Origin: Enterococcus sp. DIV0212c | GTDB lineage: Bacteria > Bacillota > Bacilli > Lactobacillales > Enterococcaceae | Direction of reading: 5' to 3' | DNA: 64,000 bases | Assembly (NCBI RefSeq): GCF_017377505.1 | Contig: NZ_JAFREN010000015.1 | Location: 41,934 to 105,933, forward strand | In this document: positions 12,022-36,474 of the stretch, one piece after another | How positions within the stretch are numbered: the first letter of the stretch is position 1 | Layout: each line of letters starts with the position of its first letter | Translations under genes and position numbers: made by a program | The notes under the pieces: generated by a model | What the model saw: the letters and a program-made list of their open reading frames with translations, nothing else | What the model was told of the DNA's origin: nothing | Databases searched by the model: none

Positions 12022-12066
12022 TTAAGGTCATGCAAAAATGTTCCGTATAAAATAATTTTTTAGATA

Positions 12067-12112
12067 AATAGGCCATACAAAATGAATTTAGTTTTGTATG
12101 GCCTATTTTTTG
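12067..12112 (+). terminator. Terminator after small coiled-coil gene
   Basis: Perfect 16-bp arms (12067-12082, 12092-12107) with a T-run. Confidence 0.92.
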
Positions 12113-12232
12113 TCGAATTTATTTCAACGAATAAAAATTACCAATAGAAAGGTGAAAGAATAATGGGAGGATTGTGAACGGTAGCTTCCCATAAAATAAA
12201 TTAATATTAGTTCATAGCAATTGCCGAGATAA

Positions 12233-22754: not shown

Positions 22755-23040
22755 ATAAAAGTAAAAGCTTTGAAAAGAAGAGTACATGTCGAAAGTGTTT
22801 GAAGAGAGCCTTGTTTGCTGGAAATGGGCAACATGATTGAGATGGAAGATGGTCTTTGAGCGGAATAAGTGAGCAGAGGTGAACTTATTACGGGAGTGCC
22901 CGTTATAGCACGACAGTATGCGAATTCAAGTACTGTATAAGGCTATTATTGTGAAATAATGGTAAATCAAGGTGGTAACACGAAAGACAAGCTTTCGTCC
23001 TTATGTCAGATTCAGACATTTGGGCGGAAGCTTTTTGCAT
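22755..23040 (+). ncRNA. T-box leader (probably methionine-specific)
   Basis: The leader has an AGTA-type element at 22780-22784, the stem I distal loop around GCTGGAAATGGGC, the T-box sequence AAGGTGGTAACACG (22969-22982) and a terminator helix 22989-23000/23022-23033 followed by T's. The 3' part of the T-box region can instead form the antiterminator. An ATG at 22849-22851 lies where the specifier codon is expected. Together with the downstream methionine importer it indicates tRNA-Met sensing, so the operon is turned on when tRNA-Met is uncharged. Confidence 0.88.
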
Positions 23041-29559: not shown

Positions 29560-32532
<2,973 letters not shown>

Positions 32533-32546
32533 TATCGAATCGGTGT

Positions 32547-32655
32547 GAAGTCAGGCTGATTTTCGGCAACTTCCCTACCATCTTTTAATCCAAAAAGCGG
32601 ATTTAAAGCTGTTAGGTCCAGTTGCTCAAATCAAAGCACCTGATTCTCAACCTAA
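32547..32655 (+). ncRNA. Structured tandem element, unit 1 (sufU-sufB gap)
   Basis: A 109-nt unit that folds into one long hairpin: TCAGG/CCTGA (32551-32555/32639-32643), TGATTT/AAATCA (32557-32562/32628-32633), GCAACT/AGTTGC (32566-32571/32620-32625), an inner arm, and AATCC/GGATT (32587-32591/32599-32603) closing an AAAAAGC loop. It lies exactly 121 bp before a second copy whose arms differ in sequence but pair at the same places. Confidence 0.75.
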
Positions 32656-32667
32656 ACTAATCAGTGA

Positions 32668-32776
32668 GAATTCAAGCAGGTTCTCGGCTGTTTCCTAAAA
32701 TAATCAAAATCCAAAAAACGGATTGTGCTTATTTTAGTCCAACAGCTCGAACCTAAACGCTTGATTCTCAACCTAA
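32668..32776 (+). ncRNA. Structured tandem element, unit 2 (sufU-sufB gap)
   Basis: Second 109-nt unit. Helices: TCAAGC/GCTTGA (32672-32677/32759-32764), AGGTTC/GAACCT (32678-32683/32749-32754), GCTGTT/AACAGC (32687-32692/32741-32746), TAAAATAA/TTATTTTA (32696-32703/32729-32736), AATCC/GGATT (32708-32712/32720-32724). The internal-loop TTCC and GTCC, the terminal loop and the 3' end TGATTCTCAACCTAA are kept from unit 1 while the helices changed in a compensating way. Confidence 0.75.
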
Positions 32777-32795
32777 GAAAGGAACGTGAGATAAT

Positions 32796-34190
32796 TTGAG
32801 TACTGTACCTGAGTTAGAAGAATATCAATTTGGTTTTCATGATGATGTGAAACCGATTTTCAGTACGGGAAGTGGACTAACAGAGGAAGTTGTTAGAGAA
32901 ATTTCACGTAAGAAAGAAGAACCAGAATGGATGTTGGAATTCCGTTTGAAATCATTAGAACAATTCCACAAAATGCCTATGCAAGAATGGGGACCGGATT
33001 TATCGGATATCGATTTTGAAAAAATCAAATATTTCCAAAGAGCCAGTGACAAACCCGCTCGTGATTGGGACGATGTACCAGATAAAATCAAAGAAACCTT
33101 TGAAAAAATCGGGATTCCAGAAGCAGAACGTGCGTATCTAGCGGGAGCTTCAGCGCAATATGAATCAGAAGTTGTTTACCACAATATGAAAGAAGAATTC
33201 CAAAAATTAGGAATCATCTTTACCGATACTGATTCAGCATTGAAAGAATATCCAGATATATTCAAAAAATATTTCGCAAAATTAGTCCCACCAACAGATA
33301 ATAAATTAGCAGCATTAAACTCAGCAGTTTGGTCTGGTGGAACGTTTATCTATGTACCAAAAGGCGTTCGTGTGGATGTGCCATTACAAACCTACTTCCG
33401 AATCAATGCGGAAAACACAGGACAATTTGAACGTACGCTGATTATCGTGGATGAGGGCGCAAGTGTTCACTACGTAGAAGGCTGTACAGCACCTACGTAT
33501 ACAAGCAATAGCTTACACGCAGCGATCGTTGAGATCTTTACCCATAAAGATGCCTACACACGTTATACAACCATCCAAAACTGGTCTGATAATGTTTATA
33601 ACTTGGTAACAAAACGTGCCAAAGCCTATGAAGGTGCTACAGTTGAGTGGATCGATGGGAACTTAGGTGCCAAAACAACGATGAAATACCCAAGTGTGTA
33701 TCTAGATGGGAAAGGCGCTCGCGGCACAATGCTTTCAATTGCATTTGCTGGAGAAAACCAAATTCAAGATACAGGTGCGAAAATGATTCATAACGCACCA
33801 AACACATCAAGTTCGATCGTTTCTAAATCAATTGCCAAAGACGGCGGTGAAGTGAATTACCGTGGTCAAGTAACGTTTGGGAAAGATAGTGCGGGCTCGA
33901 TTTCACATATTGAGTGTGATACGATTATTATGGATGATAAGTCGAAATCTGATACGATTCCGTTTAATGAGATTCATAACAGTCAAGTGGCGTTGGAGCA
34001 TGAAGCGAAGGTTTCGAAGATTTCGGAAGAGCAGCTTTATTATTTGATGAGTCGTGGGTTGACTGAGGTTGAAGCGACTGAGATGATCGTTATGGGATTT
34101 GTGGAGCCGTTTACGAAAGAATTGCCGATGGAGTATGCGGTTGAACTTAATAGACTGATTTCTTATGAGATGGAAGGCAGTGTGGGGTAA
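32796..34190 (+). CDS. sufB: Fe-S cluster scaffold protein SufB
   Basis: SufB (464 aa) is the main scaffold on which [Fe-S] clusters are built. The start is TTG at 32796, giving the family start [24 protein letters not shown] lies upstream with a long spacer. Conserved parts include [37 protein letters not shown] and [17 protein letters not shown]. It ends the suf operon. The structured pair of repeats sits directly before the start and may affect its translation. Confidence 0.96.
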
Positions 34191-34287: not shown

Positions 34288-35478
34288 TTAGAAAAGATAT
34301 TTTTCCTTTTCAATAAACTGAGCGAATTGGTCAGCGCTACGCTCCTCACGTTCGGGGTAGAAGTAGTTATATACTTGTCGAGTCATCTTGGAATCTTTAT
34401 GGCCGACACGGTACATAATATCCTCTAAGTTCATATCTGCCATTGCACAAAGTGAGACATGTGTTTTACGGAATTCATGAAGCGTAATTCTCTTTAATTT
34501 GTATTTAGTCGCGATGACATCGTACCAATCATTCGCTTGACCAGGACGACAAAATTTATTCTCTTTGTTAGGAAAAACTAGTTGATGCTTGTTCGTTGCT
34601 CTAATGCCTAAAACTTTAAACTCGAACTGCTGTCTAGTTTGCCATTCCTGTAACATAGCCATTGTTTCTGAATCAATTGAAATAGTTCTTTTACCAGCAT
34701 TTGTTTTGGCACTTTGACTAGCTACTTTGGTTATTTTAGTATTAGGATCACTTTCGACCTCAGCTAATGTTTTACTGATAATTAATTTCTTAGTTTCAAA
34801 ATTAATATCATTCCATTCAAGAGCAAGTATTTCCGATTTCCTAGCACCTGTATAGGATAAGACTCGAAAATAAGTTTCGATTTTCTTGTTTCCATGCTTT
34901 TTACAGCAATCCAAGAAGATAGCAAGCTCCTTTGGAGTGTAAACACTCATTGTTTCAGTAGCCACTAAATTTTCATCAATTTCTTGACGTTTAATAGCTT
35001 CAGTTTTGCGCATGGGATTTTCATTGATAAGTTCTTGTTGAACACCGTATTGTAAAATCTGAGCAACTGCGCGACGAAAGTAATAAGCTTGCTTGTATCC
35101 ATCTCTTATCCAACGACGATTGACCTGAGTACAGAAACGTACTGAAATATCATTCAATTTTTTGTCTCCAAAATATTCAAGCGCATGATCTTCAATGGCT
35201 CTTCTCGTAATCATGATAGTAGATGGTTTGACTTTTAATCGGTACTGTTCAATGAATTCCTCATATAACTCCTTAAAAGTGATATTACCACTCACTTTCA
35301 GTAGATTCTTATCAAAATCTAGTTGCAGTTGCCTATATACTTGTTGTGCTTCTTTTTTTGTTTGGAAGCCACTCCTAGTTGTGCGAATCTCTTCTCCAAA
35401 CTCAGTTTTTCCAAAATAGCATTGAAATTTCCAGAGTTTTTGATTGTACTTGGTGTATTGCTTAAAAGAAACAGACAT
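34288..35478 (-). CDS. int: Tyrosine recombinase/integrase
   Basis: A 396-aa site-specific recombinase. The N-terminal AP2-like arm-binding part (GFQTKKEAQQVYRQLQ) is followed by a SAM-like core-binding domain (~65-160) and the catalytic domain with Arg213 (TGARKSE), His334-x-x-Arg337 (LHEFRKTH), His360 (VGHKD) and a Tyr near 370. All catalytic residues are present, so it should be active. It is the outermost gene of the accessory region, pointing towards sufB, with an excisionase gene upstream. Confidence 0.92.
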   Translation of the reverse strand: MSVSFKQYTKYNQKLWKFQCYFGKTEFGEEIRTTRSGFQTKKEAQQVYRQLQLDFDKNLLKVSGNITFKELYEEFIEQYRLKVKPSTIMITRRAIEDHALEYFGDKKLNDISVRFCTQVNRRWIRDGYKQAYYFRRAVAQILQYGVQQELINENPMRKTEAIKRQEIDENLVATETMSVYTPKELAIFLDCCKKHGNKKIETYFRVLSYTGARKSEILALEWNDINFETKKLIISKTLAEVESDPNTKITKVASQSAKTNAGKRTISIDSETMAMLQEWQTRQQFEFKVLGIRATNKHQLVFPNKENKFCRPGQANDWYDVIATKYKLKRITLHEFRKTHVSLCAMADMNLEDIMYRVGHKDSKMTRQVYNYFYPEREERSADQFAQFIEKEKYLF

Positions 35479-35898: not shown

Positions 35899-36474
35899 CC
35901 TATAAGAAATTGTAATTATGTGTTGTTTTTACTTTATTCTAATTGAATAATATTATTGCATAAAACCAAAAGACTTACATTTGCAAGCCTCTTGTACTTG
36001 TCGATTTTCAACTTAAACATCAAGTTGTTTCTTGTTAGGAAACACATAGGAATTTCACCTCTCCCCAGTTTATGGCGAGCCTTACGGAAGTATCATTATG
36101 CTCTTGGTATGTTGCCGCAGATGAGGAACAACCTCATTTTAGTGAGTCTAGTTTTCGCTTTAAAAACGGATCTTGGCGTAGTACTCACAAATGCTTATAC
36201 AAAGAGGAAAGTACTTGATGCTTTTATTTGATTGTCAAAGAACAGGTTAAATTTTGTAACTCATAAATAAGATGATTTTTGACATGAAAAAAGCAACATC
36301 TATTTACAATGATTTTTTTGTAATATGAAATGTTTGTTTTATAGAAATTTTTATTAAGGAAAAAATAAGGTGAATCTAAGGAAATAGTTAAAAAATGAGA
36401 CTTCATTTTTGGTTAAATGTTCTTAAGAGATAAATTCTCTGAGCTATGTACTAGAAAGGAGTCGAATTGTAAAT
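35899..36474. other. Gap of ~575 bp without a supported gene
   Basis: A 91-codon open frame (35956-36231) has no ribosome site and no recognisable product, so I do not call it. The segment 35950-36220 is less A/T-rich than its surroundings and might be a decayed piece. Near the end TTGGTT (36409-36414) and TAAATT (36431-36436) may form a promoter for the exporter operon, with AGAGA/TCTCT arms over the -10. Confidence 0.4.

Follow-up and report, generated by a model that had tools for sequence, protein, structure and literature searches.

The two hairpins between sufU and sufB in Enterococcus sp. DIV0212c belong, as derivatives, to a repeat family of a known kind. The fold of the suf units is the second hairpin (SL2) of a two-hairpin repeat of about 170 nt found in E. 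faecalis. The explanation we favor, and consider probable, is that the pair consists of SL2 modules of a repeat of the Efa-1 kind, with arms that have been template-switched, and that it is read through between the two cistrons. The compensatory changes that separate the two units are real, yet they are weak evidence for an RNA function. Covariation of this sort does not prove a regulatory RNA because copying of one arm from the other can give matching changes as well.

The window, meaning the whole stretch of 64,000 nucleotides that was analyzed, carries sufC, sufD, sufS, sufU, and sufB in a single direction. The features around the sufU–sufB gap are given below. R1 is a covariance model built on 15 copies from the same genome, and in the counts below a T-run means four consecutive T no farther than 13 nt from the 3' end.

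32065 to 32532, + strand: sufU (TIGR01994, 197 bits)
32543 to 32655, + strand: suf unit A, the first SL2-type hairpin (R1 match 32543-32654, 83.9 bits)
32557 to 32562, + strand: unit A, helix 2, 5' arm TGATTT (3' arm AAATCA at 32628-32633)
32566 to 32571, + strand: unit A, helix 3, 5' arm GCAACT (3' arm AGTTGC at 32620-32625)
32656 to 32663, + strand: linker from unit A to unit B (unit plus linker make the 121-nt period)
32664 to 32776, + strand: suf unit B, the second SL2-type hairpin (R1 match 32664-32774, 95.2 bits)
32678 to 32683, + strand: unit B, helix 2, 5' arm AGGTTC (3' arm GAACCT at 32749-32754)
32687 to 32692, + strand: unit B, helix 3, 5' arm GCTGTT (3' arm AACAGC at 32741-32746)
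32777 to 32795, + strand: spacer; GAAAGGA, picked out by eye, is the likely ribosome-binding site of sufB, and the hairpin is not followed by a T-run
32796 to 34190, + strand: sufB (TIGR01980, 731 bits), start codon TTG at 32796

The sequence and its alignment bear out what the initial annotation had described here: two units of 109 nt that recur at an interval of exactly 121 nt and contain the loops and helices described, the helices changing together. TGATTT/AAATCA in unit A is AGGTTC/GAACCT in unit B, GCAACT/AGTTGC is GCTGTT/AACAGC, and TCAGG/CCTGA is TCAAGC/GCTTGA. The placement between sufU and sufB, ahead of the TTG start, is likewise confirmed by the two TIGR models. The units share 38 pairs, 23 of them identical (one a G-U) and one a one-sided mismatch; the other 14 have changed on both sides, are paired in both units, and are G-U in none. 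The same pair counts come out when an A unit and a B unit of two relatives are compared. Both units are of the SL2 type only, without SL1 (window 32543-32776), and their common 3' end is TGATTCTCAACCTAA in the alignment. Unit A folds at -33.0 kcal/mol (z -4.96) and unit B at -37.6 kcal/mol (z -8.62), values that 0 of 200 shuffles equal in either case. RNAalifold drops the outer stem and pairs TCG with CGA in place of helix 2.

Other features of the window can be noted in passing. Directly 3' of sufB (34288-35478, - strand) lies a tyrosine recombinase with weak matches to XerA, XerC, and XerD, all below cut-off, which suggests an integrated element. A pemK RNA (Rfam, 62.9 bits) is present at 36044-36099 on the - strand and a T-box leader (Rfam, 104.2 bits) at 22761-23005 on the + strand. 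Besides the suf units, the best R1 match of the window is a weak one at 12038-12132 on the - strand (21.8 bits, E 0.0018 for the window), which may be a degenerate relative of the repeat.

The fold common to the suf units recurs at many unrelated genes when R1 is used as the probe. In the genome of DIV0212c, a DNA search finds 12 additional places at E < 0.001, and R1 gives 39 matches: 20 sense places (the two suf units included), 18 antisense shadows, and one weak match. Among the R1 copies, 21 of 45 pairs have changed on both sides, and 0 of 500 shuffles reach as high. At E 0.01 or better, R1 matches 23 of 41 genomes, namely 19 of the 22 inside the genus (DIV0212c counted in both figures) and 4 of the 19 outside it. 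The covariance-model search thus finds enterococcal copies dispersed near unrelated genes, with covariation present, and the alternative that had been named at the outset, a repeated element that spreads as a folded unit, is the better fit.

An exact 29-mer of the consensus from DIV0212c has no match among the genome contigs searched, which may have left out that genome itself, and the suf units have none in the plasmid search. With three different copies as queries, the plasmid searches return 71, 71, and 117 records, nearly all from Enterococcus; the rest include some from Lactiplantibacillus, Lactococcus, and Lacticaseibacillus and single records from Escherichia, Pseudomonas, and Klebsiella. 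A phage search with the dispersed consensus matched no record. In another phage search, the enterococcal repeat matched 60 records that carry the name of a Listeria phage and 25 that carry the name of an Enterococcus phage, and the Listeria-named records may hold enterococcal DNA.

For a closer description, 158 copies were tabulated from the top-scoring matches listed, and weak copies are under-represented among them because the best matches are the ones listed. Out of 125 matches in one search, 25 were left out, that is, 22 antisense shadows, two matches on L298, and one weak match on L357; the copies of L071, L072, and L189 and the E. faecalis loci also lie outside the 158. Many of the listed copies are mutually orthologous (the guaA leader, metG, and the L066/L309 group), so counts over them are not independent. 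The architecture runs AATAAACG-GTG, helix 1, helix 2, TTCGG, helix 3, an inner loop, and an apical helix 4. The inner loop commonly reads TTYC on the left and TCC on the right, and the return strand carries CTC, TAAaCG, and CAACCT. Stem sequences vary between subfamilies while this architecture is constant.

The full form of the repeat is best seen in E. faecalis, where the element is SL1 plus SL2 and the span from SL1 to CCT is 169 nt in all nine copies measured. L193 and L190 each fold into two hairpins. By a simple pattern, SL1 stands upstream of SL2 in 46 of the 137 listed copies that are neither at suf nor at atp. The 747-kb E. faecalis record NZ_CP143580.1 holds 7 model matches, all 7 in intergenic gaps between annotated coding sequences, and 10 places by DNA search. 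This record is labeled a plasmid; the 50 kb of it that were listed carry the housekeeping genes gatABC, ligA, pcrA, and tig, and it looks like a piece of the chromosome.

The same 137 copies were used to study genomic context, with gene neighbors taken from open reading frame (ORF) calls made here and not from annotation. The strands of the upstream and downstream neighbors are +- at 65 copies, ++ at 28, -- at 25, and -+ at 0, with 19 unresolved, and 0 of the 137 lie inside an ORF of at least 150 amino acids. A T-run follows 57 of the 137, compared to 250 of 1781 background windows. It is seen in 19 of 28 copies in the ++ context, in 32 of 65 convergent (+-) ones, and in 3 of 25 in the -- context. 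This means that the T-run is found mainly where the upstream gene points into the element (51/93 versus 3/25 among listed copies), as an intrinsic terminator of that gene would show. From its sequence and placement, the dispersed repeat looks like a portable stop signal and is a candidate terminator. The mirror image of this signal, an A-run 5' of SL1, is present in 6 of 9 listed copies in reverse context and in 22 of 37 in forward context.

Orthologous gaps that hold the repeat in some species and not in others are informative here. The gap before metG is matched by all 22 genus genomes; 16 loci were taken, 15 of them with both flanks. In 11 of these 15 species there is no repeat, and a short hairpin is followed by a T-run. 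The other four (G013, G018, G007, where it is rearranged, and G003) have the repeat, and its 3' end joins the same T-run. At a second gap (16 loci, read by eye), nine hairpins were taken as ordinary, with G015 ambiguous. G008 has a full repeat there, G010 a repeat in the opposite orientation, G007 another subfamily, and G005 an SL1-like hairpin alone; G020 has no hairpin, and two loci are single-flanked. A third gap (13 loci, also by eye) has seven ordinary hairpins, the repeat in G003, other repeat-like hairpins in G007 and G010, and three unreadable loci. At the three compared gaps, then, the repeat occupies the place of the terminator-like hairpin of the relatives. Target duplication is unreadable at these gaps because the relatives' own hairpin is missing there, and a candidate empty site at L025 is too diverged to read.

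Across the genus, the sufU–sufB gap itself differs between genomes. Full sense units are found in 8 of 22 genomes, 15 units in total, one to three per genome and of types A and B. Their order is A-B in G000, G011, and G006, A-B-A in G003, and B-A-B in G008, and G009, G020, and G014 have a single B unit plus a remnant (remnants judged by eye). The other 14 genomes lack a full sense unit: three hold a remnant alone (by eye), five have a gap of 51 to 54 bp, two carry another subfamily in antisense, and in four nothing was recognized. The 51-bp gap may be a deletion scar with the 5' arm left behind. Among the best 80 of 153 named sufU loci, four have a model match in the gap, and they belong to E. 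quebecensis, E. ureilyticus, Enterococcus sp. 5H, and E. rivorum. A tree built on the suf genes to either side of the gap places E. rivorum (G014) apart from the rest of the unit-bearing genomes, outside their branch, and the intact, remnant, and short-gap states are intermixed in the main clade, where inner forks are mostly weak. We read these states as an old insertion followed by repeated expansion and loss. A specific role in tuning sufB, once thought plausible, is weakened because 3 of the 22 genomes hold just a remnant and 5 just the short gap. A T-run follows 0 of the 15 suf units, and therefore they should not act as intrinsic terminators. In another genome (G012, locus L108), the 291-bp sufU–sufB gap has no model match and looks palindromic by eye.

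Units of this type are also present in another operon. In 6 of 22 genomes, R1 finds sense SL2 units between atpG and atpD, two in tandem in G001, G005, and G017 and one each in G000, G019, and G020 (the loci with two units are L359, L367, and L374, and those with one are L358, L363, and L365); 16 of 22 have no match. Several other genomes have short outer-stem hairpins at this place when judged by eye. The guaA leader holds a copy that, by its flanks, is orthologous in G000, G002, G009, and G017 (loci L034, L073, L053, and L059), carries a T-run, and is possibly an attenuator or the terminator of the upstream gene. The atp units and the guaA copies are the best reason for keeping a functional role in view. 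Head-to-tail pairs with periods near 117-137 nt are seen at other sites too (L074:1501-1748, L191, L189:2012-2243, L278:879-1112, and L350:889-1113), and in L074 and L191 two different subfamilies are joined. In several species, an SL2-like copy lies within a longer conserved stretch that comes in two related versions (L066, L290, L305 and L309, L315, L330, L332, L344).

The initial annotation took changes on both sides of three helices as strong evidence for selection on structure, and this is unsupported by what the copies reveal. If each copy were under selection as a sense RNA, G-U pairs should be favored, and no such preference is seen. The suf orthologues have four pairs changed on both sides, with one-sided changes being two of the G-U type and eight of the A-C type. 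Four subfamilies (31, 18, 25, and 12 copies, or 86 of the 158 listed) show 44 G-U-type versus 65 A-C-type distinct one-sided transitions, or 79 versus 146 when counted by cell, all in copies that are related and not independent, so that a p-value computed by cell overstates the contrast; both-sided Watson-Crick changes amount to 29 distinct events. The claim that loops are kept while helices change stands for the comparison of unit A with unit B and fails among orthologues, where the loops vary too. In nine B-unit orthologues, 10 of 32 unpaired columns (one being a gap column) and 10 of 41 pairs are variable, and in six A-unit orthologues, the figures are 8 of 36 (again with one gap column) and 6 of 39. 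Divergence in the four genome-wide subfamilies is 0.119, 0.091, 0.218, and 0.081 at unpaired positions versus 0.059, 0.081, 0.125, and 0.020 at paired ones.

In some copies, one arm has been overwritten with the complement of its partner. For example, the right inner loop of the metG copy in G018 (L075) has changed to the complement of the left arm, which is not the case in the G013 orthologue (L057), and the left arm of the guaA copy in G000 (L034) has changed to the complement of the right arm, which is not the case in the orthologues L073, L053, and L059. A stem that runs across the inner loop, with at most two mismatches in 16 nt, occurs in 13 of 153 tested copies, a raw count that carries no chance expectation. 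Seven of these come from asymmetric-loop subfamilies (L263, L266, L286, L317, L331, L034, and L075), and the remaining six from the GAAATAAG subfamily, in which the inner loop is small; L258 is an additional case outside the 153-copy test. Such multi-base arm conversions are what template switching would leave. Most copies keep their unpaired inner loops, though arm copying could erase them.

Putting these observations together, an SL2 module would have entered the sufU–sufB gap in an ancestor of the clade and would then have been duplicated head to tail. The complementarity of its arms may have been upheld largely by template switching during replication. The hairpins, having no T-run, would not stop transcription but would be read through as intercistronic hairpins, which may be neutral or may mildly affect how the downstream sufB message is processed or how stable it is. 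The B unit of E. rivorum and the atp units point to a persistence inside operons that goes beyond plain neutrality. It is possible that the suf pair plays a mild part in the processing or stability of mRNA; that it is a dedicated regulator of suf is unlikely.

The arm conversions bear on a different account of the covariation, which has a little less than an even chance of being right and is compatible with the favored explanation. It holds that the source copy, as it spreads, is selected for its fold, either in RNA or in single-stranded DNA, and that the individual copies decay neutrally. The architecture kept across subfamilies with different stem sequences agrees with this, as do one-sided changes in single copies with no pairing preference, which is what neutral decay predicts; however, multi-base conversions are seen between orthologues, and a mutational process alone can give both-sided changes. 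The excess of A-C over G-U could instead mean that pairing is kept in an antisense transcript, an idea that arises because A-C in the sense strand is G-U in the antisense strand. The 65 versus 44 events in the 86 listed copies lean that way, and unpaired sites lack such an asymmetry (C>T 0.039, G>A 0.043, A>G 0.021, and T>C 0.018 events per cell). Selection on the antisense strand is nevertheless very improbable, given that the T-run lies at the sense 3' end, that sense orientation prevails, and that the excess is modest and the copies related.

A functional reading that we think rather unlikely is that the suf and atp hairpins have been exapted and are kept in their transcripts because RNase III cuts at them or exonucleases are blocked by them, which would fix how much downstream protein is made relative to upstream protein. 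The units are in sense orientation and end about 20-30 nt ahead of the start codons of sufB and atpD, they are present at atpG–atpD in six genomes, and both E. rivorum and the main clade have a suf unit. Against this, the genomes with only a remnant or only a short gap at suf are mixed over the tree, most genomes have no match at atpG–atpD, G-U is not favored either in the suf orthologues or family-wide, and the loops are as variable as the stems among orthologues. Least probable of all, and hardly to be expected, is a suf-specific regulatory RNA, such as a riboswitch or protein-binding leader responsive to iron or sulfur. Its position inside the suf gene cluster and the deep fold would suit such an RNA, but the same fold is found at many unrelated genes and the full sense unit is missing from most sufU–sufB gaps. 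Rfam gives no family here at gathering score or at permissive thresholds, only sub-threshold matches.

The suf pair can serve as a warning case: the compensatory changes between its units look like those of a textbook, yet the repeat is one in which the arms visibly copy each other. Anyone who would claim a functional RNA from covariation in a hairpin repeat should first check for template switching. The case also suggests that, at a number of enterococcal loci, the terminators are repeat modules that can stand in for one another. A broader and more tentative proposal, about which we are doubtful as a whole, is that a family of portable Enterococcus terminators spreads by replacing native terminator hairpins, stays palindromic by arm-to-arm template switching, and has become domesticated, without the T-run, as tandem hairpins between cistrons of the suf and atp operons. 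We take the published Efa-1 to be probably the same as EFAR (Venditti et al. 2007). A literature search on EFAR, enterococcal intergenic repeats, and terminator repeats found, among the results listed, no description beyond that in PMC2267715, and it is by this search that the suf units and the terminator exchange would be called undescribed.

Among known systems, the closest is Efa-1 of E. faecalis, an intergenic element of 163 nt made of an adjacent stem-loop pair, with a published copy number of 65 (18 in brackets) (Cozzuto et al. 2008, PMC2267715). The two-hairpin repeat fits Efa-1, being dispersed and intergenic, with two adjacent hairpins and 169 nt to CCT compared to the published 163 nt; the identity is drawn from the published description and not from the Efa-1 sequence. 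The suf units differ in being SL2 alone, in tandem, inside an operon, and without a T-run, and they are filed as derivatives of the Efa-1 kind and not as full members, as they do not have both stem-loops. Like an intrinsic (Rho-independent) terminator, the repeat has a hairpin and a T-run at gene ends and stands where relatives have terminator-like hairpins. It differs from one in that its sequence is shared across loci, that the suf units have no T-run, and that its terminator role is predicted. The small palindromic repeats ERIC, PU-BIME, BOX, and RUP of other bacteria, named in PMC2267715, are likewise short, mostly intergenic, and hairpin-forming. The same can be said of NEMIS. As for the arms, template switching is reported by Monttinen and Loytynoja (2022, PMC8794818) to create and maintain RNA hairpins. 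The repeat resembles those hairpins in its both-sided changes and multi-base arm conversions; there the process was inferred in RNA genes, whereas here it concerns a dispersed bacterial repeat.
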